Part shown: piece after piece, positions 24,586 to 41,315 of the stretch
Position numbering within the stretch: position 1 is the first letter of the stretch
Layout of the letters: each line of letters starts with the position of its first letter
Source of the DNA: Candidatus Desulfolinea nitratireducens
GTDB lineage: Bacteria > Chloroflexota > Anaerolineae > Anaerolineales > Villigracilaceae
Assembly: GCA_014382535.1 (NCBI GenBank)
Contig: JACNJN010000082.1
Coordinates: 1-41,614, forward strand
Direction: 5' to 3'
DNA: 41,614 bases
Translations under genes and position numbers: made by a program
Notes under the pieces: generated by a model
Seen by the model: the letters and a program-made list of their open reading frames with translations, nothing else
Databases searched by the model: none
What the model was told of the DNA's origin: nothing

Positions 24586-24679
24586 CGGGAGTGCATGGGA
24601 GTCGAACCCACCACGGCCCGCAACGCGACCCGTCACCGATGTTGAAGACCGGGAAGCCCACCGGGACTTAACCACTCCC
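24586..24679 (-). tRNA. selC: Selenocysteine tRNA (anticodon UCA)
   Basis: The minus strand gives a 94-base tRNA with acceptor GGGAGTG/CACTCCC, an extended D stem, anticodon stem CCGGT/ATCGG around loop CTTCAAC (anticodon TCA), a very long variable arm (about 9 pairs around GTT, bounded by ACGGG and CCGT), and T loop TTCGACT. Discriminator G73; CCA is not encoded in full (CCT follows). The long acceptor and variable arm with UCA anticodon are diagnostic for tRNA-Sec. An eighth acceptor pair would be G opposite G. SelA at 14460 is its enzyme. Confidence 0.95.
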
Positions 24680-28608: not shown

Positions 28609-29772
28609 ATGTCCCTAAAAACACAATTTCTCCTAGATCCAAATGTAATCTTCCTCAACCACGGTTCATTTGGAGCCACCCCACAACCAGTATTTGAATC
28701 ATATAAACACTGGCAATACAGGCTAGAGAAGCAACCGGTTAAATTCATAGGTCGGGAAATACACAGCTATCTGAAAAACGCTCGACAGAAACTAGGGGAG
28801 TATCTCCATATTCAGCCAGATGATCTAGTGTTCATTCCAAATGCTACTTTTGGGGTCAACATCCTTGCTCGTTCAATCAAACTAAAAGAAGGGGATGAAA
28901 TTCTGACATCTGACCATGAGTATGGTGCTTGTGAAAATGCTTGGATTTTTAGTTGCCGAAAAACAGGGGCATCTCTTGTCCGTCAGCCTATTTCCTTACC
29001 AATAACATCCTTTGCTCAAATCGTTGAGCAGTTCTGGCAAGGCGTTACTCCACGCACAAAGGTCATATACATAAGTCATATCACGTCGCCCACCGCTCTT
29101 TGTATGCCGGTAAGCGAAATTTGTAAACGAGCAAGGGCAGCAGGGATCATCACGATTATTGATGGTGCCCACGCCCCTGGCCAAATGAATATTGATCTTG
29201 AAGATTTAGGTGCAGATTTCTACGTTGGAAATTGTCATAAATGGATGCTCGGAGCGAAGGGGGCTGGCTTCCTTTATGCGAGTAAGGAGATGCAAAAAAT
29301 AGTCGAGCCTCTTGTTGTAAGCTGGGGATGGGGAGATAATTCACCATACACTACTGGTTCGGATTTCCTGGATAATCTTGAATGGTGGGGAACAAAGGAT
29401 CCCGCTGCTTATTTATCCATTCCAGCAGCAATCCATTTTCAGGAAGAACATGACTGGCCGTCTGTGCGCCGAGAGTGTAATCAAATACTTCGGGAAACTT
29501 TGCGACGAATTAGCGAGCTTACGGGTATTCCCCCAATCTATCCAGATGCGAATGGTTACTACTACCAGATGGCAACAGCCCCTTTGCCTGCGATTGATAA
29601 TCTTATTGAATTTAAAACCCAATTATACGCACAATATCAGGTTGAAGTACCTTGCCTCGAATGGAACGAGGACCCATACATCCGCATTTCTATTCAGGCA
29701 TATAATTCTCTTGAGGATATCAATATTCTACTAGATGCTTTAGAACAGATGTTGCCAAACTATCAATTATGA
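28609..29772 (+). CDS. Class V PLP aminotransferase (isopenicillin-N-epimerase-like)
   Basis: A 387-residue fold-type I PLP enzyme. N-terminal LNHGSFGATPQPVFE (residues 16-30) is typical; PLP contacts include D185-G-A-H188 and the Schiff-base lysine K211 in YVGNCHKWMLGAKG. Relatives are annotated as isopenicillin N epimerase-like or cysteine desulfurase-like aminotransferases; the true substrate is unknown, and no beta-lactam genes are nearby. ATG 28609 is preceded by AAGGATTACTT. A degraded relative of the same family lies 60 bases downstream on the opposite strand, followed by an FAD oxidoreductase gene. Confidence 0.85.
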   Translation: MSLKTQFLLDPNVIFLNHGSFGATPQPVFESYKHWQYRLEKQPVKFIGREIHSYLKNARQKLGEYLHIQPDDLVFIPNATFGVNILARSIKLKEGDEILTSDHEYGACENAWIFSCRKTGASLVRQPISLPITSFAQIVEQFWQGVTPRTKVIYISHITSPTALCMPVSEICKRARAAGIITIIDGAHAPGQMNIDLEDLGADFYVGNCHKWMLGAKGAGFLYASKEMQKIVEPLVVSWGWGDNSPYTTGSDFLDNLEWWGTKDPAAYLSIPAAIHFQEEHDWPSVRRECNQILRETLRRISELTGIPPIYPDANGYYYQMATAPLPAIDNLIEFKTQLYAQYQVEVPCLEWNEDPYIRISIQAYNSLEDINILLDALEQMLPNYQL

Positions 29773-29834: not shown

Positions 29835-30128
29835 TCACTGCCATTTATAACAGGCGCCAATGTAAATATCGGCAACATGTAAAAAAACGCTGTTACGCTG
29901 GTGATCTGGCTCAGGAAAATACCCCGCGTTTGTGTTGAGATAGATTGCCAATTTTTCGCGGGCTGCTGCCATCAAAGAAGTCACACGCCTGCCAAGAAAT
30001 TCAACCGGCTGACGTTCCAGTTCTCGCTGCCAGGCCTGATAGACATCAAAGACCGGTTTTGGACAGGCGCAAAAAGAGCCGTGATTGAGAAAGGTGATTT
30101 CCGGGTCGAGAAGAAAGTGTTTTTTCAT
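29835..30128 (-). pseudogene. Broken relative of the class V aminotransferase
   Basis: From ATG 30128 the frame reads MKKHFLLDPEITFLNHGSF, then PKPVFDVYQAWQRELERQPV and EFLGRR, closely like the N-terminus of the intact neighbour (LLDPNVIFLNHGSF, EKQPVKFIGRE). After about residue 75 the match stops, then a short piece, IYIGACYKW, resembles the region around the catalytic lysine (FYVGNCHKW) and ends in a stop. So most of the central part has been deleted and the C-terminal half is lost. It is in inverted orientation to the intact copy. Confidence 0.8.
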
Positions 30129-30302
30129 GCAGATATGATCTCCAAACCGTAGTGTTATGAAGGATTTTACCGCGATTTCTTTGGCGAGAAGAAATCTCCA
30201 TATATCTGAGGTGAAAGTCTCTCGCAGCAACGTTATGCATTTCGGGTTATCTGAAAAACCGCAACGCCGAGCATTGGGACAAGGGCTTAATTGACCGTTC
30301 TT

Positions 30303-31816: not shown

Positions 31817-31845
31817 TTGACAGTTCACCCATGCTTGGGTAGAAT
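31817..31845 (+). promoter_or_regulatory. Promoter of the ilv-leu operon
   Basis: A perfect TTGACA (31817-31822), 17-base spacer and TAGAAT (31840-31845). Expected start of transcription is about 31852, giving a leader of about 290 bases before ilvD. Confidence 0.85.
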
Positions 31846-31886
31846 TGCGCCCAATATCACAGTCAGGAAATGACTGACAGGAAAAT

Positions 31887-32006
31887 ATGATAAATACTTT
31901 CGCTCTCTACCTTCTTAGCCTTATTATTATTTTGGTTCTTATCCTTGGGATTACGAACCTATTTACGTTTGGGCCAGCTAGAAAGGTGAGAGTGAAGAGC
32001 AGATAA
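31887..32006 (+). CDS. Leu/Ile/Val-rich leader peptide of the ilv-leu attenuator
   Basis: A 39-residue ORF starting at ATG 31887 with CAGGAAAAT upstream. It begins MINTFALYLLSLIII and ends in ARKVRVKSR. In residues 7-22, 13 of 16 codons specify Leu, Ile or Val, the end products of the operon it precedes. It lies 36 bases from the likely transcription start and ends 30 bases before an intrinsic terminator. The sequence could in principle be a small membrane protein, since such proteins are also rich in these residues, but the location, the promoter, the terminator and the alternative pairing make a regulatory leader the better reading. No length-conserved homolog is claimed. Confidence 0.8.
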   Translation: MINTFALYLLSLIIILVLILGITNLFTFGPARKVRVKSR

Positions 32007-32066
32007 TCAGCAAAACACATACCTGAAGCTAAAGCAAAGGGCTGCCCAAACGGGCAGCCCTTTTTT
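31966..32066 (+). promoter_or_regulatory. Transcription attenuator: antiterminator arm and terminator
   Basis: Terminator: GGGCTGCCC (32039-32047) pairs with GGGCAGCCC (32052-32060), extended by AAA/TTT to 12 pairs, then a U-run to 32066. Antiterminator: CGTTTGGGC (31966-31974), inside the leader ORF, is perfectly complementary to GCCCAAACG (32044-32052), and AGC (31976-31978) to GCT (32041-32043) after one bulged C. The two structures exclude each other. A ribosome stalled in codons 7-22 would reach to about 31965 and leave the antiterminator arm free, allowing read-through into ilvD when Leu, Ile or Val is scarce. A moving ribosome would cover the arm and favour termination. Confidence 0.78.
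32036..32066 (+). terminator. Intrinsic terminator in the ilv leader
   Basis: A 12-pair stem (nine core pairs plus three A-U) with loop AAAC, followed by six T residues. It lies 75 bases before the ilvD start codon, within the transcribed leader. It is the terminator arm of the attenuator. Confidence 0.88.
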
Positions 32067-32140
32067 GTTATCTATTTTCCCCCACCTAGCCTCCCCCGTT
32101 TCAAAAATCGGAAACAAGGGAGGAAGAAGGAACAGGAATA

Positions 32141-33805
32141 ATGAGATCAGATACCATCAAAAAAGGATACGAACGCGCTCCACATCGCTCGCTTCTCAAA
32201 GCGACGGGCGTCAAGGATGAAGATTTCGCAAAACCTTTTATTGCGATTGTCAATTCTTATATCGATATTATCCCCGGACATGTTCATTTGCAGGAATTTG
32301 GACGCAAGGTCAAAGAGAGGGTTCGTGCTGTGGGCGGCGTTCCATTTGAGTTCAACACCATCGGTGTGGATGACGGAATCGCGATGGGGCATGCAGGGAT
32401 GAAATTCAGCCTGCCCTCCCGGGAGTTGATCGCTGACAGCGTTGAAACGATGATCCAGGCCCACCAATTTGACGGGATGGTCTGCATCACCAATTGCGAC
32501 AAGATCGTCCCCGGCATGACCATGGCTGCGCTGCGGGTGGATATTCCCACGATCATCATTTCCGGCGGCCCCATGGCGGCAGGCCTGACACCCGACGGTG
32601 AAGTGGTCGATCTGATCTCAGTCTTTGAAGGCGTTGGTGCATTCAAAGCGGGGAAGATCGACGCTGCTCGTTTGAAAACGCTCGAGGATTTCGGCTGCCC
32701 GACCTGTGGCTCCTGTTCTGGAATGTTCACCGCCAATTCGATGAATTGTCTGCTCGAGGTATTAGGACTGGCACTTCCATTCAATGGTTCAGCATTGGCG
32801 CTGAGTGAAGAACGCGAAGCGCTGGCTCAAAAAGCTGCCAGTCAAATAGTAAATCTGGTCGAAAAAAATCTGACACCACGTCAGATCGTCACCGCCGAGG
32901 CCTTTGATGATGCCTTTGCCCTCGATATGGCCATGGGTGGCAGCACCAATACAGTTTTGCATACCCTGGCTTTGGCACATGAGGCCGGGATCGAATACAG
33001 TCTTGAAAGAATCAATAAGGTCGCCGATAAAACACCCCATTTATGCAAAGTCAGCCCGTCCGGAACGTGGCATATGGAAGATGTGCATCGCGCAGGAGGC
33101 ATCCCTGCCATTTTGAACGAGTTGGAAAAATCCGAAGGTTTGCTGCATCTTGACCGGCCAACGGTATCAGGCCAAAGTTTGCGTGAGTCCATCGCCGGGA
33201 TTGAGATCAAGGAACATGATGTGATCCGTCCACTGGAGAATCCCCATTCTTCCACCGGCGGTCTCTCGATCCTCTTTGGCAATCTCGCACCCAAAGGTTC
33301 AGTAGTGAAAACAGGCGGGGTTGACCCCTCCATGCACCAACACACTGGGCCGGCGCGAATTTATGAGAGTCAGGATGATGCCATGCGCGGCATTCTCAAT
33401 CAGGAAGTCCAGGAAGGCGATGTGGTCGTCATCCGTTATGAGGGGCCAAGTGGCGGACCCGGGATGCAGGAAATGCTCTCACCGACCTCTGCCATCATGG
33501 GGATGGGGCTTGGAGAAAAAGTGGCCTTGATCACGGATGGACGATTTTCCGGCGGCACACGCGGCGCTTGTATTGGTCATATCAGCCCTGAGGCCGCGGC
33601 ACGCGGCCCCATCGCAGCATTGCAAGATGGCGATTTGATCGAGATCGATTTGAAGGCACGCACACTAAATGTAAAGCTCAGCGATGAAGAAATAGAAGCC
33701 CGTCTAAAGGCATTACCCGTATTTTCAGTAGAAACCCAGAGCTCATGGCTGCGCCGCTACGCCCGCATGGTAACCAGCGCAGACCAGGGGGCGGTGTTGG
33801 TCTGA
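32141..33805 (+). CDS. ilvD: Dihydroxy-acid dehydratase
   Basis: A 554-residue iron-sulfur enzyme for the third common step of valine and isoleucine synthesis. Cluster-region cysteines are seen in [12 protein letters not shown] (C119) and [11 protein letters not shown] (C185, C188, C191). The first ligand position shows PGHVHL as in the E. coli type, not PCNxHL as in many [2Fe-2S] enzymes, so the E. coli-like [4Fe-4S] form is a reasonable guess. [14 protein letters not shown] and [12 protein letters not shown] are also present. ATG 32141 follows AACAGGAATA. It is the first structural gene after the attenuator. Confidence 0.96.
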
Positions 33806-33825
33806 TCCTTGCCCTTACCCTTCAC

Positions 33826-33848
33826 CCTCTCCCGCAAGCAGGAGAGGA
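33826..33848. repeat. C/G hairpin between ilvD and ilvB
   Basis: CTCTCC (33827-33832), loop, GGAGAG (33841-33846), flanked by CCCTTACCCTTCACC. Same core as 21877-21899 and 38923-38947. It lies in the 84-base gap of the operon and might affect mRNA decay. Confidence 0.6.
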
Positions 33849-33889
33849 GACTAATTGAAATCTGAAATTATTTTTAGGAGAAAGAAATT

Positions 33890-35575
33890 ATGAAAAAAAC
33901 TGGTGCAGATATTTTGATGGAATGCCTGATCCGCGAGGGCGTGGATACGATTTTTGGATATCCCGGTGGGGCAATCATGCCCGTTCACGACGCAATGCTG
34001 AGATATCCGGTGCATCATATCCTGACTCGCCATGAACAGGGAGCCGCTCACGCTGCGGACGGATACGCGCGTGCCTCAGGCAAGGTCGGCGTTGCCGTGG
34101 CAACTTCCGGGCCCGGAGCGACGAATCTTGTGACTGGCATCGTCACCGCAAATATGGATTCGGTACCGATCGTTTTCATCACCGGCCAGGTTGCTGCTGA
34201 TCTGATCGGAGGAGATGCCTTTCAGGAGACAGATGTAACCGGTATTACCCTGCCAGTCACGAAACATAATTATCTGGTCACCCGTGCTGATGAGATCGCT
34301 CAAGTTGTGCGGGAAGCCTTTCATATCGCACGTAGCGGACGCCCCGGCCCGGTCTTGATCGATATTTGCAAAAATGCCCAGATCGAAGAAACTGAATTTA
34401 TCTACCCTGAAACAATTTCTCTGCCCGGTTATCATCCGCCAGAGCACGCGCCCATGGAGGGTCTGGAAAAAGCCGTAGAGCTGATCAAAAAAGCAGAGCG
34501 TCCGGTGATATTGGCAGGGAACGGAGTGCTCATGTCCGGGGCGATGGATGAGCTCCAAATCTTTGCCGCCAAAACCAATACGCCTGTTGCAATGACCCTC
34601 CTCGGGCTGGGAGCGATTCCCGCATCCAGTCCGCTCAGCCTGGGAATGATGGGGATGCACGGCGAGGCCTATTGCAACTCAGCCATCCAGGAATCCGATC
34701 TAATTCTCGCATTTGGGATGCGCTTTGATGATCGGGTAACCGGTATGCTCAGTACCTATGCCCCCAAGGCCAAAAAAATTCACATTGAGATCGATCCCTC
34801 CGAAGTCCATAAAAATGTCTTCGCAGATGTGCCTTTGATCGGCGATCTAAAAACCGTCCTGACCGATTTGATCCCCATGCTGGATGAATACGATCACGAA
34901 AAATGGATGCAGCAGATCGACGTGTGGAAAACTGAAACGAAAGAACGCAGTGTTATGGCCTGGCCCGATGATGACAAGCTCTACACTCCGCATGTCATCC
35001 GTGCACTTTGGAAAGCAACCAGTGGTGACGCTCTCGTGGTGACTGGTGTCGGGCAACATCAAATGTGGGCGGCGCAATATTACGAATTTGAAAAACCCTA
35101 CCGGCTGCTCACCTCTGGCGGCGCTGGCACAATGGGATATGGGCTGCCCGCCGCGCTTGGCGCCTGGTTCGCTCATAAAGATCGCGAGGTCTGGCTGATC
35201 GATGGCGATGGCAGTTTCCAGATGACCGCGGCGGAGTTATCCACCCTGGTACAGGAAGGTGCGAATGTCAAAATCGCAATAATGAATAACAGCTTCCTCG
35301 GCATGGTCCGCCAATGGCAGGAATTTTTTTATGATAAACGCTATGCTGCCACCCCGATCACAGGTCCTGATTTTATAAAACTCGCTGATGCGCATGGCAT
35401 CCCTGGTCAACGGGCGACCACCCCTGATGAAGTATTTGACGCGATCGAATTCGCCCATAAAACACCGGGACCGGTTTTGCTTGAATTCGTGGTTGAAAAA
35501 GAAGAGTCCGTATATCCGATGGTTCCCGCCGGAGCAGCTTTGCATGAAATGCTGCGACGTCCGATCCGCAAATAA
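33890..35575 (+). CDS. ilvB: Acetolactate synthase, large subunit
   Basis: A 561-residue thiamine diphosphate enzyme that condenses two pyruvates, or pyruvate and 2-oxobutyrate. Catalytic glutamate E49 is in TRHEQGAAHAADGYARA. The ThDP/Mg motif is GDGSFQMTAAELSTLVQEG followed by NN near 445-466. The middle FAD-binding domain contains GNGVLMSG and FGMRFDDRVTG. ATG 33890 has AGGAGAAAGAAATT upstream. The small subunit gene follows after 12 bases. Confidence 0.96.
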   Translation: MKKTGADILMECLIREGVDTIFGYPGGAIMPVHDAMLRYPVHHILTRHEQGAAHAADGYARASGKVGVAVATSGPGATNLVTGIVTANMDSVPIVFITGQVAADLIGGDAFQETDVTGITLPVTKHNYLVTRADEIAQVVREAFHIARSGRPGPVLIDICKNAQIEETEFIYPETISLPGYHPPEHAPMEGLEKAVELIKKAERPVILAGNGVLMSGAMDELQIFAAKTNTPVAMTLLGLGAIPASSPLSLGMMGMHGEAYCNSAIQESDLILAFGMRFDDRVTGMLSTYAPKAKKIHIEIDPSEVHKNVFADVPLIGDLKTVLTDLIPMLDEYDHEKWMQQIDVWKTETKERSVMAWPDDDKLYTPHVIRALWKATSGDALVVTGVGQHQMWAAQYYEFEKPYRLLTSGGAGTMGYGLPAALGAWFAHKDREVWLIDGDGSFQMTAAELSTLVQEGANVKIAIMNNSFLGMVRQWQEFFYDKRYAATPITGPDFIKLADAHGIPGQRATTPDEVFDAIEFAHKTPGPVLLEFVVEKEESVYPMVPAGAALHEMLRRPIRK

Positions 35576-35587
35576 GGAGATTTTGAA

Positions 35588-36115
35588 ATGCATAACACAC
35601 TGATCGCTTTAGTTGAAGATAAACCAGGTGTGCTCAACCGGGTCGCCTCGCTCTTTCGCCGCCGCAATTTTAATATCGAATCGTTGAATGTAGGTCGCAC
35701 CGATAAAGCAAATATTTCCAGGATGACGATCGTCGTGAACAGCGAAGGCGTGGATGCCCGCAAAGTGGAAGCCAATCTATATAAGCTTGTCAACGTGATT
35801 GACGTCCAGGATGTCACCAATCAGCCAGCTGTGATCCGGGATCTGGCACTGATCAAGGTCAAGGCAAAACCTGATCAACGCGCAGAGGTCTCCAGCCTGG
35901 CAGCCATCTTTCGCGGCAATATCATCGATGTTGCGCCTGATTCCGTTATCGTGGAACTTACCGGAACCGAAGACAAGATCGAGAGTCTGGTCGAGTTACT
36001 TCGTCCTCTCGGTATTCTCGAAATGGTCCGGACCGGAAACGTCGCCATGATGCGTGGTGATATGAGCGGAAAACGCTATACACCCGGCACAAATGGCAAT
36101 GGCCATGTGGAATAA
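35588..36115 (+). CDS. ilvN: Acetolactate synthase, regulatory small subunit
   Basis: A 175-residue protein with an N-terminal ACT domain (ALVEDKPGVLNRVASLFRRR, then FNIESLNVG) and a C-terminal small-subunit domain (IRDLALIKVKA, then FRGNIIDVAPDSVIVELTG). The ACT domain binds valine in homologs and gives feedback inhibition. AAGGAGATTTTGAA precedes the ATG. It is a full-length subunit (ilvH-like in size). Confidence 0.95.
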   Translation: MHNTLIALVEDKPGVLNRVASLFRRRNFNIESLNVGRTDKANISRMTIVVNSEGVDARKVEANLYKLVNVIDVQDVTNQPAVIRDLALIKVKAKPDQRAEVSSLAAIFRGNIIDVAPDSVIVELTGTEDKIESLVELLRPLGILEMVRTGNVAMMRGDMSGKRYTPGTNGNGHVE

Positions 36116-36141
36116 ATAAAAATATCAAAAGGAAAAACAAA

Positions 36142-37194
36142 ATGGCAAATATACTGTTCGGCAATGTAGAAGAGAGAGTCGTCACCAGAGATGAATTTCC
36201 GCTTGAAAAAGCGCGCGAAGTTCTAAAGGACGAAATCGTCGCGGTTTTGGGATATGGCGTGCAAGGACCTGCCCAGGCTCTGAATATGAAAGAAAACGGG
36301 ATCAACGTGATCGTGGGGCAACGAAAACCCTCCCCAAATTGGGATAAGGCTCTCGCCGATGGCTGGGAAGAGGGCGTCAATCTCTTCTCCATCGAAGAAG
36401 CTGCCGAACGAGGTACCGTACTTCAATATCTGCTCTCGGACGCGGGACAAAAATCACAGTGGCCGAAGATCATTGAAATGCTAAACGAAGGTGACATGCT
36501 CTACTTCTCCCACGGATTTGGGATCACCTACAAAGATCAGACTGGTATCGTCCCACAGGATAATGTCGATGTGGCCCTGGTCGCCCCCAAGGGTTCTGGC
36601 ACCAGCGTCCGGCGGAATTTTCTCGATGGTTCCGGGATCAATGCCAGCTTCGCCGTTCACCAGGATTTCACCGGTCGTGCCGAAGAACGGGCAATTGCGC
36701 TTGGCATTGCAATTGGCGCTGGCTATTTATTCCCCACCACCTTCCAAAATGAAGTCTACAGCGATCTGACTGGTGAACGTGGGATCCTGATCGGTGCGCT
36801 TTCAGGCGTAATGGAAGCCCAATATAACGTCTTGCGCAAGCATGGGCATTCCCCCAGTGAAGCTTTCAATGAGACCGTTGAAGAATTGACCCAATCCCTC
36901 ATCCGGCTGGTGGCTGAGAACGGCATGGATTGGATGTATGCGAATTGTTCCACCACCGCGCAACGGGGCGCATTGGATTGGCATCCCCGTTTCCGAGATG
37001 CGGTTGCTCCGGTCTTTGATGACCTTTACGAAAGCGTTGTCTCCGGAGAAGAAACCCGCATCGTGCTGGACAAGAACAGTGATCCAAATTACCGCGAAAA
37101 TCTGGCCAAAGAGCTCAAGGTTATGCATGATTCAGAGATGTGGCAAGCCGGCGCAGCCGTACGTTCTCTGCGACCGGAAAACTGGAAAGAGTAA
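36142..37194 (+). CDS. ilvC: Ketol-acid reductoisomerase
   Basis: A 350-residue enzyme. The nucleotide site is GYGVQGPAQALNMKENG, followed by a specificity loop GQRKPSPNWDKA of medium length. The C-terminal domain has GEERAIALG-type and FQNEVYSDLTGERGIL, and a late NGMDWMYANCSTTAQRGALDW. This is a somewhat longer single-domain (class I) layout than the common 330-residue form. The loop with no Asp/Ser triplet leaves NADPH or NADH preference open. It lies 26 bases after ilvN, with AAAGGAAAAACAAA before the ATG. Confidence 0.95.
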   Translation: MANILFGNVEERVVTRDEFPLEKAREVLKDEIVAVLGYGVQGPAQALNMKENGINVIVGQRKPSPNWDKALADGWEEGVNLFSIEEAAERGTVLQYLLSDAGQKSQWPKIIEMLNEGDMLYFSHGFGITYKDQTGIVPQDNVDVALVAPKGSGTSVRRNFLDGSGINASFAVHQDFTGRAEERAIALGIAIGAGYLFPTTFQNEVYSDLTGERGILIGALSGVMEAQYNVLRKHGHSPSEAFNETVEELTQSLIRLVAENGMDWMYANCSTTAQRGALDWHPRFRDAVAPVFDDLYESVVSGEETRIVLDKNSDPNYRENLAKELKVMHDSEMWQAGAAVRSLRPENWKE

Positions 37195-37200
37195 GTGATA

Positions 37201-37239
37201 GAAAGTAGATAGAGGAGCAATCTCCCCCCTTCTACTTTC
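37201..37239. repeat. Inverted repeat between ilvC and leuA
   Basis: GAAAGTAGA (37201-37209) and TCTACTTTC (37231-37239) are perfect 9-base arms around a purine/pyrimidine-rich loop (GAGGAG / CTCCCC). It lies 6 bases after the ilvC stop and just ahead of the leuA start. Confidence 0.6.
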
Positions 37240-37259
37240 CACGCTCAAAGGACGATCTT

Positions 37260-38885
37260 ATGAGTAAAGATAATTACATCCGTATTTTTGATACCACCCT
37301 GCGAGATGGCGAACAATCCCCTGGGGCCTCGCTAACCTCCAACGAAAAACTGGAGATCGCGCGCGGGCTGGCAAAACTCGGCGTGGACGTGATCGAAGCT
37401 GGCTTTCCCGCTGCTTCGCCCGACGATCTCGAAGGGGTCCGCCGAATCGCTAAAGAGGTGGGGAACAGTACCGAATCCGAGCCGCCGATCATCTGTGGGC
37501 TGGCCCGCACGATCAAATCCGATATTGACGCGGCCTGGGAAGCGATCCAGTATGCGGCAAAACCGCGCATCCACACATTCCTCGCCACCTCCCCCATCCA
37601 TATGGAACATAAATTACGGATGACTCCTGAAGAGGTCGTTGTGAAGATGCGTGAGATGGTCAGCTATGCCAAAACGCTCTGTCAGGATGTCGAGTTTTCT
37701 CCTGAAGATGCCGGGCGGAGCGAACCAGAATTTCTCTATCATATTCTTGGCGAGGCCATCAAAGCCGGGGCAACCACCCTCAATATTCCCGACACCGTTG
37801 GCTATACGACCCCGAAAGAATTTGGTGATCTGATTGCCGGGATTATCGCCAATACACACGGGATCGAAAATGCTATTGTTTCTGTCCACTGCCACGACGA
37901 TCTGGGTCTCGCAACAGCCAATAGCCTTGCCGGACTTCAGGCAGGTGCGCGGCAAGCCGAAGTGACCATGAATGGGATCGGCGAGCGTGCGGGCAATACC
38001 TCTCTCGAAGAAGTAGTCATGGCGCTCTACACCCGTCGTCCTATTTACGGTCTTGAAACCGGCATTGATACCACCCAGATCATCCGCATCAGCCGCACGG
38101 TTTCCAACTATACCGGGATGATTGTCCAGCCAAACAAAGCGATTGTCGGTGCAAATGCCTTCGCCCATGAAGCGGGCATCCATCAGGATGGGATGCTTAA
38201 AAATAAATCCACCTACGAGATCATGCTCCCTGAAACTGTAGGGTTGCATCGTTCCCGTTTGGTATTGGGCAAACACTCCGGGCGGCATGCACTAAAAGTT
38301 CGTTTGGCTGAATTGGATTTTGAAGTGGATGACGAGGAACTGAAAGTGATCTTCAAACGCTTCAAAGATCTGGCTGATAAAAAGAAAATTGTATCGGATG
38401 CAGATCTTGAAGCACTTGTCGAAGATCAGCTTTATCAGGCACAGGAGATCTATAAACTGGATGGATTGCAGGTCGCCTGCGGGACGATAGGCTTGCCCAC
38501 TGCGACCGTACGTTTGGTTGGTCCCAATGGGAATCTCCATATTCAAGCCGCCCTGGGCACTGGTCCGGTGGACGCTGCCTATAAGGCGATCGATGAGGTC
38601 GTAAAAATGCCCAATACCCTGCTTGAGTTCCACATCCATGCAGTCACCGAAGGCATTGACGCCATCGGTGAAGTGACCGTACGGCTTGAGCCAGAAAATG
38701 GAAGCATCCCCGAGCGCACCTCCCCCCAAAGCGGAGAGGTGCATAAACGCACCTTTGGCGGGTATGGCGCACATACCGATATCATCGTGGCTGGTGCAAA
38801 AGCGTATCTCGCCGCATTGAATAAATTGCTCGTCGCCAGTGGTCGTTATGGTGAAGTTGAAACCGCGACAGAGGTTGGCGCATAA
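37260..38885 (+). CDS. leuA: 2-isopropylmalate synthase
   Basis: A 541-residue enzyme for the first step of leucine synthesis. The HMGL-type barrel has [17 protein letters not shown] (residues 9-25), metal-binding [12 protein letters not shown], and [14 protein letters not shown]. The C-terminal regulatory LeuA dimer domain holds [13 protein letters not shown] and [19 protein letters not shown]. Residues about 483-496 ([16 protein letters not shown]) form an insertion not expected in the family and coincide with a hairpin-forming, C/G-rich piece of DNA at 38716-38742, as described separately. The Shine-Dalgarno is weak (AAAGGACGATCTT). The gene is otherwise intact. Confidence 0.95.
38716..38742. 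repeat. Hairpin repeat inside the leuA coding region
   Basis: Arms GCACCTC (38716-38722) and GAGGTGC (38736-38742) enclose CCCCCAAAGCGGA. The composition resembles the C/G-rich intergenic hairpins, here translated in frame as part of leuA's regulatory domain. Confidence 0.55.
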
Positions 38886-38889
38886 AACT

Positions 38890-38980
38890 CTGCCCTCACC
38901 CCCGCGTCGCTACGCTTGCTCCCCCTCTCCCGCGTTGCGGGAGAGGGAAGTTCGAGCAAAGCAAGAACGGGTGAGGGCAG
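38890..38980. repeat. Nested palindromic element between leuA and the small gene
   Basis: Outer perfect 12-base arms CTGCCCTCACCC (38890-38901) and GGGTGAGGGCAG (38969-38980) enclose an inner perfect 11-base hairpin CCCTCTCCCGC (38923-38933) / GCGGGAGAGGG (38937-38947). The whole is 91 bases and symmetrical, like a full-length copy of the dispersed hairpin family of which other sites show only the core. It lies in a polycistronic transcript 5 bases after the leuA stop. Confidence 0.8.
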
Positions 38981-39009
38981 GTTCTCATCACTTAATCAAG
39001 GAGAATAAA

Positions 39010-39306
39010 ATGAGCAAGAAAACAAAAATACGCACAAAAGAAGACCAAAAAACAGAAGAAGAACATATGATGGAAACATTCCCGGAGCCCCGAGGCATGC
39101 CCAACGAATGGAGCCTGTCTGATTTGGCAGACGCCAAAACAAAGAGGGATCTGCTGGATGATAAAAAGGTAGTCTCCTTGCAAAAGAGCGCAAAGGAAAG
39201 TAATGGAGACTCTCCAGAAATGAAAAAAGACGAAGAGCATCTGATCGAAACTTTCCCCAAACCGCGCACCATGCCTTCTGAGTGGCATTGCAATAATTGC
39301 GACTAA
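39010..39306 (+). CDS. Small protein with a duplicated ETFP-PR-MP-EW motif, unknown function
   Basis: A 98-residue hydrophilic protein, ATG 39010, with AAGGAGAATAAA directly ahead. Residues 17-34 (EEHMMETFPEPRGMPNEW) and 75-92 (EEHLIETFPKPRTMPSEW) are the same motif, 13 of 18 identical. Between them is a charged linker (SLSDLADAKTKRDLLDDKK then VVSLQKSAKESNGDSPE). The C-terminus HCNNCD has two cysteines three apart. No membrane segment or signal. It sits between leuA and leuC, in the same transcript, 6 bases before leuC. I do not recognise the family. Two copies suggest a repeated binding interface; metal or cluster binding by the C-terminal cysteines is possible, and would fit the iron-sulfur isomerase downstream, but that is speculation. 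Confidence 0.75.
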   Translation: MSKKTKIRTKEDQKTEEEHMMETFPEPRGMPNEWSLSDLADAKTKRDLLDDKKVVSLQKSAKESNGDSPEMKKDEEHLIETFPKPRTMPSEWHCNNCD

Positions 39307-39312
39307 ACATCG

Positions 39313-40725
39313 ATGATGCATAAAAAACCAAAAAATCTCTTTCAAAAAGTATGGGATGCGCATCTTGTTGCTGAAAATGATGACGCACCCTCCATTCTTT
39401 ATATTGATCTTCATCTCATCCACGAGGTGACCTCACCCCAGGCCTTTAGTGGACTGCGGGATAAAGGGCTAAAAGTTCGCCGCCCGGAGCGCACTATCGG
39501 GACCATGGATCATTCCATCCCCACCCTCTCTCTTGATCTTGAGACTGCCGACGATATGGCCGTCAAGCAGTTGGCACAATTTGAAAAGAATTGTACCGAT
39601 TTTGGGATCCAGTTTTACGGCATGGATAGCCCGAATCGCGGCATCGTCCATGTGATCGGGCCGGAGCAGGGATTTACCCAACCCGGACAAACCATCGTCT
39701 GTGGCGATAGTCATACCTCTACACATGGCGCTTTTGGCGCACTTGCTTTTGGGATCGGCACCAGCGAAGTGGAACATGTTCTCGCTACACAAGCTTTGCT
39801 TCAAAATCGCCCCAAAACCTGCCTCGTCAAATTTGAAGGAAAACTTCAGAGGGGCGTGACTGCCAAAGATATGATCCTTGCCCTGATCGCCAGGATCGGC
39901 ATTGGCGGTGGGACAGGCCATGTCTTTGAGTATGCAGGCGAGGCCATCCGTACATTGAATATGGAAGAGCGGATGACCCTCTGCAATATGTCCATCGAAG
40001 CGGGTGCGCGTGCCGGAATGATCGCCCCAGACAACGTCACATTTGAGTATTTGGCTGGGCGTCCCTACGCCCCGAGCGGAGAAGCATGGAAAGCTGCCCT
40101 CAAAAAATGGCGTCAACTTCCCTCAGACAAGGGCGCTGAATACGATCAGACCATCACGATCGATGTATCCAAACTTGAGCCAATGGTCACTTTCGGAACC
40201 AACCCGGGGATGGGCACAGAGATCAATTCAAGTGTCCCAAGCCCAATTCACGAGAGCGATCCTGCGAAAAAATCCGCCCTTGAAAAAGCCCTTGCTTATA
40301 TGGATTTGGCCCCGGCCAGCGCGCTAAAGGGGCATCCCGTCGATGTGGTGTTTATCGGAAGCTGCACCAACTCCCGAATGAGCGATCTGCGTGCCGCCGC
40401 ATCTATCCTGAAAGGTCGCAAAGTCGCCGAGGGGATCCGCCTGCTGGTTGTGCCTGGCTCTGAGAATATCCGCTTAGAAGCAGAGGCCGAGGGGATCGAT
40501 GAGATCGTCCGCGAAGCAGGCGGTGAATGGCGCTTTGCCGGATGCAGCATGTGCATCGCGATGAACGGCGATAATCTCGAACCTGGTCAATACGCTGTCA
40601 GCACGAGCAATCGAAATTTTGAAGGCCGGCAAGGCAAAGGTGGGCGCACATTTCTCGCCAGCCCCCTGACCGCCGCCGCCAGCGCGATCACTGGCAAAAT
40701 TACCGACCCCAGAGAGTTCATCTAA
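39313..40725 (+). CDS. leuC: 3-isopropylmalate dehydratase, large subunit
   Basis: A 470-residue aconitase-family protein. Cluster cysteines are C351 ([11 protein letters not shown]), C411 and C414 ([12 protein letters not shown]). Substrate and family motifs include DHSIPT (66-71), [23 protein letters not shown] (130-152) and [21 protein letters not shown] near the end. It isomerises 2- to 3-isopropylmalate together with LeuD. The start ATG 39313 has no clear Shine-Dalgarno and lies 6 bases after the small gene, so its translation probably depends on that gene. The stop overlaps leuD (TAATG). Confidence 0.96.
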
Positions 40726-41315
40726 TGAAATCTTTTACCAAACTAACTTCCAAAATCATTCCCCTGCCTCATACAGACGTGGATACCGACCAGATCATCC
40801 CGGCCCGTTATCTGAAAGTGATCGATAAATCGGGGTTGGCAGAAGGTCTCTTTGATAGCTGGAGACGCCTTGAAGATGGCAGCCAAAATCCCGAATTCCC
40901 GCTTAATCAGGATGAATACCAGGATGCTCAAATTTTGCTTGCCGGTGATAATTTCGGTTGCGGATCATCCCGTGAACATGCCCCCTGGGCGTTAATGGGA
41001 TGGGGAATTAGCGTCGTGATCAGCACCTCCTTCGCAGACATATTTCGAAATAACGCGCTAAAGAATGGCTTGCTTCCGATTGTCGTCAGTGAGGAGATCC
41101 AGAAATCTCTCTTCGACCTCAGCGAGGAAGCACCTGCCGCAACCATCGACATTGACCTGGAAGCCCAACATTTCTCACTCCCCAATGGAGATATGGTCTC
41201 GTTTGAGATCGATACTTTTAGCAAAACCTGTTTACTGGAGGGGATTGATCAGCTTGGCTATTTGATGAAGCACGAGAATCAGATCGCGGCGTTTGAAGCG
41301 ATGCGTAACGAGTAA
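40725..41315 (+). CDS. leuD: 3-isopropylmalate dehydratase, small subunit
   Basis: A 196-residue swivel-domain subunit. It has TDQIIPARYLK near 21-31, LAGDNFGCGSSREHAPWAL near 71-89 and SFADIFRNNALKNGLLPIVV near 105-124, as in standard LeuD. It begins in the leuC stop codon (shared A) so expression of the two is coupled. It is the last visible gene of the ilv-leu operon; leuB is not in the window. Confidence 0.96.
   Translation: MKSFTKLTSKIIPLPHTDVDTDQIIPARYLKVIDKSGLAEGLFDSWRRLEDGSQNPEFPLNQDEYQDAQILLAGDNFGCGSSREHAPWALMGWGISVVISTSFADIFRNNALKNGLLPIVVSEEIQKSLFDLSEEAPAATIDIDLEAQHFSLPNGDMVSFEIDTFSKTCLLEGIDQLGYLMKHENQIAAFEAMRNE

Follow-up and report, generated by a model that had tools for sequence, protein, structure and literature searches.

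A predicted ribosome-mediated attenuator ahead of the ilv-leu operon of an Anaerolineae bacterium, with relatives across the class

The enterobacterial ilvGMEDA, ilvBN and leu attenuators (in Rfam, Leu_leader and similar families) use the same mechanism and respond to the same amino acids as the element that we propose here for a member of the Anaerolineae (Chloroflexota), whose leader has no recognised sequence relation to them. All three are named in the accessible part of PMC1183508. The Corynebacterium ilvBNC leader (ilvB-II motif) is also similar: in the available parts of PMC10272879 and PMC11857589 it is described as an upstream ORF (uORF) rich in branched-chain amino acid (BCAA) codons before the ilv genes, with antiantiterminator, antiterminator and terminator hairpins. 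The Anaerolineae element differs from it in phylum, in its first gene, which is ilvD or ilvB, and in the absence of an Rfam match. It also differs in layout, as most of the ORF goes into forming the antiantiterminator, and the ORF usually contains the antiterminator arm as well. The ilvB-OMG motif (41 representatives in various phyla) and the Leptospira ilvB motif likewise have a BCAA uORF before ilvB, for which attenuation is suggested in the accessible portion of PMC10272879. Our comparison with these two is by description only, and the lack of an Rfam match in the 49 sources that we scanned has to be read with the caveat that the library may lack ilvB-OMG. The string “Chloroflex” is absent from the main text of PMC10272879. 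For Staphylococcus aureus, the available part of PMC5794164 describes a leucine-rich attenuator peptide in the leader of the BCAA operon ilv. Our leader-plus-terminator detector did not flag the one Staphylococcus locus included, ilvD of S. rostri, and so may miss other designs. A full-text search, with most subscription papers and the 2004 and 2010 attenuation surveys beyond its reach, found no description of a BCAA attenuator in Chloroflexota. This agrees with the original prediction, which knew of none in such organisms, and is not proof of absence. The mechanism is already known; the RNA family, its lineage and its transporter targets appear to be new.

The window, by which we mean the whole stretch of 41,614 nucleotides analysed, belongs to a 3.65 Mb genome, that of Candidatus Desulfolinea nitratireducens. 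The best matches to its ilvD among named records are Anaerolineae/Chloroflexi MAGs at 74%, and still nearer genomes may be missing from those records. The leader and the operon that follows it contain the following features, all on the forward strand:

31817 to 31845, +: sigma-70-type promoter TTGACA-17-TAGAAT (TTGACA at 31817-31822, TAGAAT at 31840-31845), 11 of 12 matches
31887 to 32006, +: leader peptide ORF of 39 codons, MINTFALYLLSLIIILVLILGITNLFTFGPARKVRVKSR (ORF list)
31898 to 31923, +: segment 1, the anti-antiterminator 5' arm, within the leader ORF (folding, covariation)
31905 to 31952, +: control codons 7-22, 13 of 16 for Leu, Ile or Val (codon count)
31934 to 31959, +: apical hairpin within the control codons, usual family form GGTCCTTA-TTAT-TAAGGACC (folding, alignment)
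31966 to 31979, +: segment 2, the antiterminator 5' arm; the part from 31970 onward, with 31980-31997, pairs with segment 1 (covariation, folding)
32036 to 32066, +: intrinsic terminator, a 12-pair stem at 32036-32063 and a T run to 32066 (sequence, covariation)
32040 to 32052, +: segment 3, the terminator 5' arm and loop, reaching one base into the 3' arm, the alternative partner of segment 2 (covariation, folding)
32141 to 41315, +: controlled operon of ilvD, ilvB, ilvN, ilvC, leuA, a small ORF, leuC and leuD (ORF list and family matches)

All sequence parts of a classical ribosome-mediated attenuator thus stand in the leader of the window. The 39-codon ORF with its 13 Leu/Ile/Val codons among codons 7-22, the 12-pair terminator and the consensus promoter had each been claimed from the letters alone, and direct counting and pairing bear them out. 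Eight of the 12 terminator pairs are G-C and the T's follow directly. CGTTTGGGC (31966-31974) is an exact 9-base complement of GCCCAAACG (32044-32052). When the 500 bases upstream of ilvD were dinucleotide-shuffled, an ORF with Leu, Ile or Val at 10 or more of 16 codons plus a terminator appeared in 0 of 400 shuffles. The first operon gene, ilvD, begins at 32141, and the amino acids of the leader's product, Leu, Ile and Val, are the operon's own. We read the leader, with a probability of about 0.93, as a ribosome-mediated transcription attenuator that would sense charged Leu, Ile and Val tRNA.

The promoter is a family feature as well: 97 of 101 family leader loci have a match of 11 or 12 of 12 upstream of the leader ATG, and the best match in shuffled controls (108 segments) is 10 of 12. 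Transcription would start a few bases past the -10 box, near 31852. No conserved Shine-Dalgarno sequence is visible by eye ahead of the aligned family leaders. Elsewhere in the window, the small ORF separating leuA and leuC (38839-39306) contains the motif ETFPxPRxMPxEW twice (by eye), a selenocysteine tRNA gene lies at 24587-24679 on the minus strand (Rfam RF01852, 65 bits), and an aminotransferase-like ORF at 28609-29772 adjoins a shorter, apparently truncated paralogue on the opposite strand (29835-30230, by eye).

Folding of the leader reveals a part absent from the original account. Within the ORF, 24 pairs join 31898-31923 to 31970-31997 and enclose the apical hairpin at 31934-31959. This ORF hairpin buries much of segment 2, the antiterminator arm, and thereby completes the classical 1:2 / 2:3 / 3:4 set. 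The computed energies are –34.4 kcal/mol for 1:2 (as a hairpin), –18.8 kcal/mol for 2:3 (12 pairs with one bulge allowed) and –23.5 kcal/mol for 3:4. Prediction and covariation agree that segment 1 hides segment 2, and a stalled ribosome with the assumed footprint can cover it. When the transcript is folded at increasing length without a ribosome, 1:2 is present and 2:3 appears at no length. With a stalled ribosome, whose footprint we assumed to extend 15 nt past the P site, and the A site at codon 7, 10, 13, 16, 19, 20 or 22 (the codons tried), 2:3 forms with 12 pairs in transcripts ending at 32051-32055. Once the transcript reaches 32059, and with it most of the 3' arm of the terminator, the terminator replaces 2:3. 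With the A site at codon 25, 2:3 is reduced to 4-7 pairs.

These states suggest the following mechanism. A ribosome would begin translation of the leader at 31887. When BCAA are plentiful it would pass the control codons, segment 1 would pair with segment 2, and the terminator at 32036-32063 would form. When they are scarce the ribosome would stall within codons 7-22 and cover segment 1, leaving segment 2 to pair with segment 3 (32040-32052) once that is made; 2:3 would then pre-empt the terminator, and ilvD-ilvB-ilvN-ilvC-leuA-leuC-leuD would be transcribed. Because the terminator outweighs 2:3 in stability, we infer that antitermination would have to be won kinetically rather than thermodynamically. 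A ribosome on the stop codon leaves part of segment 2 uncovered, and termination after full translation would therefore need segment 1 to re-pair. The ORF, its codons, the three stems with their conservation and the controlled genes are read from the sequence and its comparison; stalling, termination and read-through are what this arrangement would produce.

Two other roles could be imagined for such an arrangement: the leader might chiefly boost ilvD translation by re-initiation, which the accessible part of PMC4833913 proposes as a general role of leader genes, or the terminator might insulate the operon from upstream transcription. The terminator, however, separates the leader from ilvD, a promoter of its own precedes the leader, the preceding ORF lies on the opposite strand, and neither idea predicts mutually exclusive stems. 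We regard both as extremely unlikely.

T-boxes occur on BCAA genes, and a further alternative is a leader that binds a tRNA, as a T-box does, or a ligand, as a riboswitch for ppGpp or another effector does, and in which the ORF arose by chance. It has a precedent in the ppGpp riboswitches that control ilvB in some bacteria, according to the portion of PMC10272879 at hand. Yet none of the families in Rfam 15 reached its gathering threshold in the 49 sources (the window leader, 8 relatives and 40 further loci), and no T-box match was obtained in the window leader. The best score for that leader was 24.9 bits for Phe_leader against a threshold of 55, with 24.6 bits for a minus-strand stretch. The conserved structure, moreover, is built from the codons of the ORF itself, and we give this alternative hardly any weight.

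Conservation of the attenuator was followed in the family Villigracilaceae. A search for IlvD in 152 family genomes gave matches in 109 (127 listed rows) and none in 43. Upstream sequence was taken for 108 rows, the 19 omitted being C-terminal or second fragments or distant paralogues. A leader ORF (at least 10 of 16 codons for Leu, Ile or Val) and a terminator are present at 94 of the 95 close ilvD loci; at the sole exception the contig ends one base upstream. Run on 500 upstream bases, the detector picks up 93 of the 94 loci whose sequence is long enough and none of 470 shuffles. Among 13 paralogous dehydratase loci, seven have the leader, five have none and one offers only 52 upstream bases. 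The same leader thus precedes a different dehydratase, with 42-45% identity to the IlvD of the window, at seven loci, apparently through an exchange of the first gene beneath a conserved switch. This comparison of related upstream regions had been proposed with the original prediction, and it finds the Leu/Ile/Val density, the terminator and both stems kept, with compensatory changes. Relatives that keep the peptide and lose the stems, the pattern named as refuting, were looked for and not seen, although 2:3 is weak in several members of the genus to which the window belongs.

Tandem leader-terminator units occur at seven of the 101 family leader loci, and paired model matches are found in two genomes outside the family. 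All seven proximal copies encode LLL and then KER or a near variant of it, and the distal copies encode VLI[IL]K[DN] in four cases and VLLGxxLE in three (genus g22). The two copies may weigh Leu and Ile differently. The term “tandem attenuators” is used, in the accessible part of PMC3641672, for Salmonella mgtCBR, a different system.

Covariation was scored in 60 family leaders with less than 80% identity to each other. In the ORF hairpin and terminator, two-sided changes are found at 23 of 35 pairs compared to 17.2 in shuffles (3 of 500 as high), and the covariation score is 0.247 compared to 0.197 (0 of 500 as high). In these stems 82.7% of cells are paired, against 38-55% with slid partners, a percentage inflated by the fact that this alignment had also supplied the structure. 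The terminator stem is paired in 97.3% of cells and the outer ORF stem in only 68-73%. Further pair types only slightly exceed the shuffles (63 compared to 58.2, 30 of 500 as high). RNAalifold returns only the terminator for the whole alignment; folding the ORF columns separately brings out the ORF hairpin, whose scored form comes from softer settings. For the 2:3 stem in a single register, two-sided changes at 7 of 10 pairs compare with 2.6 in shuffles, a count that is too low, as the pairing of the GGTTAGG group is offset by one base from that of the GGTTGGG group. The stem slid by +1 scores well too, since this second register exists. The compensatory sets were therefore taken from a register-free comparison in place of the fixed-register count and include GGTTAGG/CCTAACC, GGTTGGG/CCCAACC, GATTGGG/CCCAATC and GTTTGGG/CCCAAAC. 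The longest complementary run overlaps one and the same [GA]TTnGG-type motif in 59 of the 60 leaders (by eye), G066 being the exception.

As a control at synonymous sites, each leader was recoded 200 times with its peptide unchanged. The native ORF fold lies within the best 5% of recodings in 44 of 60 leaders (mean z –2.7) and the 2:3 duplex in 42 of 60 (mean z –2.6). For the window's own leader the ORF fold reaches z –3.3 against the recodings, and its 2:3 duplex is marginal. The predicted 9-base complementarity (12 with a bulge) is present, but the window alone does not decide its significance, as 16 of 200 recodings equal it. Of the eight leaders among the 60 that are weakest on 2:3, four (G037, G036, G040 and G034) belong to the genus of the window, and the duplex of G037 does not exceed its recodings (141 of 200). 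Exclusivity of antiterminator and terminator is likewise found across the leaders and is marginal in the window alone. When possible partners are ranked, a leader's own terminator comes within the top 10% for only 31 of 60 family leaders and 19 of 59 in the wider set described below, because the arms resemble each other between species. Codon use is skewed as well: CTT makes up 50% of Leu codons in the 60 leaders compared to 4% in ilvD of 30 family loci and 17% in 23 larger ORFs of the window, and ATT makes up 76% of Ile codons compared to 41% in the same ilvD genes. Part of this bias serves the hairpin, and another part may reflect control-codon choice, which theory predicts for E. coli attenuators (PMC1183508, accessible part).

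These results bear on the possibility that the leader encodes a functional small hydrophobic membrane peptide, co-transcribed with the operon, and that the terminator is incidental. The core is indeed hydrophobic and the peptide is recognisably alike within the family. A functional peptide would not, however, account for structural constraint at synonymous sites, for the extreme CTT use among Leu codons, or for a stop codon that wanders, relative to the end of the longest complementary run, between 46 nt downstream and 16 nt upstream (59 loci of the wider set, leaving aside one whose 4-base run is spurious). The core is 76% Leu/Ile/Val and only 4% Phe/Met/Trp/Tyr, a composition that is partly circular as the 16-residue window was picked for Leu/Ile/Val, and there is no NCBIfam match at E ≤ 0.001. 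The constraint, the CTT bias and the wandering stop codon make a membrane peptide very unlikely and leave attenuation as the preferred reading.

A covariance model of 173 positions, which scores the window leader at 93 bits, was used to follow the attenuator family further. In the genome of the window it finds no further BCAA copy; the remaining matches there are the palindromic minus strand (36 bits) and others of at most 30.3 bits. Six of these weak matches were inspected; five lack an amino-acid-biased leader and the sixth, L193, is Met-rich. Across the order, matches at E ≤ 0.1 turn up in 201 of 301 genomes, a generous tally because the noise floor is near 1e-3, and the stricter limit of E ≤ 1e-5 is reached in 11 or more families besides that of the window. 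At E ≤ 1e-5 the class gives 95 matching genomes out of 396: 20 from the window's family (its own genome included), 5 from the order and 70 others. Of 400 genomes from the phylum 30 match, and just three of these lie outside the class. The element spans the order and the class and is rarely found beyond.

Sixty match loci outside the first data set were inspected, picked for strength, spread and second matches rather than at random. Forty-five stand ahead of ilvD or a paralogue (31) or ilvB (14), and the other 15 lack a match to the operon of the window. In distant members the arms have changed together, as in GGTTGGGAGG/CCTCCCAACC and GTTTGAGGCGGC/GCCGCCTCAAAC, and the ORF stops before, within or after the complementary run. 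This run averages 8.1 Watson-Crick pairs with a leader's own terminator compared to 6.0 with those of others (59 loci). The locus dropped, L258, is a false model match with no leader, and L254 has a weak one. Among 79 named ilvD loci across phyla the detector passes five: two from Chloroflexota that are family members (G036 and G044), two from Gemmatimonadetes and one from an unclassified bacterium. At two further named Chloroflexota loci (L033 and L035) it detects no leader with terminator. The Gemmatimonadetes loci (L072 and L087) have a Leu/Ile/Val-rich ORF and a terminator, and no Rfam match.

Some of the 15 other loci point to possible additional target genes. One precedes ilvE (TIGR01122, above cut-off), and another precedes a 106-residue ORF that looks ilvE-like by eye but has no Pfam match, with prephenate dehydratase (PF00800) next in line. 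A LivK-type binding protein, each time above the PF13458 cut-off, comes after four of the leaders; these are rich in Ile, Leu, Met, Tyr, Trp, Phe and His and are followed by a terminator, with leader-terminator runs of 6-8 bases. Two (L247 and L249) precede an ECF transporter, whose PF12822-like S-components score 28.0 and 26.5 bits, just under the Pfam cut-off of 30.7, and whose ATPase (one scanned) matches ECF ATPase models under their cut-offs. Their leader-terminator runs are only 5 and 4 bases. An Ile/Leu-rich leader ORF and terminator recur at seven of nine S-component orthologues at 79% or more. The transporter leaders are Ile/Leu-rich and also contain Met, Tyr, Phe and Trp. Of the remaining loci, one ends at a contig end and six, L258 among them, have no gene assignment. 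In the window's own genome no leader precedes the sole Peripla_BP_6 gene, and no Trp leader is recognisable ahead of trpE there or in relatives (9 loci).

The Met-rich match, L193, lies in the same genome on the minus strand (G000:C155:2486-2655). It comprises a 31-codon ORF, MREIMIASSLNIAKPAMSMMMVMFVYPAEAE, a terminator and a PLP enzyme of Cys/Met metabolism, of the cystathionine gamma-synthase / methionine gamma-lyase type with no model over cut-off. The covariance model matches it weakly (E 0.018), and AGGCAGA in the ORF can pair with the terminator arm (–9.6 kcal/mol). Homologues of the enzyme occur in 9 of 150 family genomes at E ≤ 1e-100, this one included, and no Met-rich leader stands before the other eight (52-58% identity). 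The sequence hints at a candidate Met attenuator in which the design has been re-coded for another amino acid, in a single case.

Taken further, attenuation gained early, or kept, in the Anaerolineae may serve a small BCAA regulon, in which one RNA family with freely drifting leaders controls ilvD and ilvB operons, ilvE, and uptake by a LivK-type binding protein and an uncharacterised ECF transporter. The tandem units would be two switches in series, the second tuned to leucine. On this view the leader codons would mark branched-chain or other hydrophobic amino acids as the substrates that the ECF S-component takes up. We offer the regulon tentatively, at somewhat short of even odds, an estimate that leaves the Met-rich L193 out of account.

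According to one survey, amino acid attenuators may have arisen in gamma-Proteobacteria, with few transfers (PMC3766115, accessible part). A family that is spread through a class of Chloroflexota and has a few members elsewhere points to a deeper or repeated origin of attenuation. The leader family provides a ready Rfam candidate, a means to predict transporter substrates from leader codons and, for bacteria that are largely uncultured, a regulatory handle on their amino acid supply.
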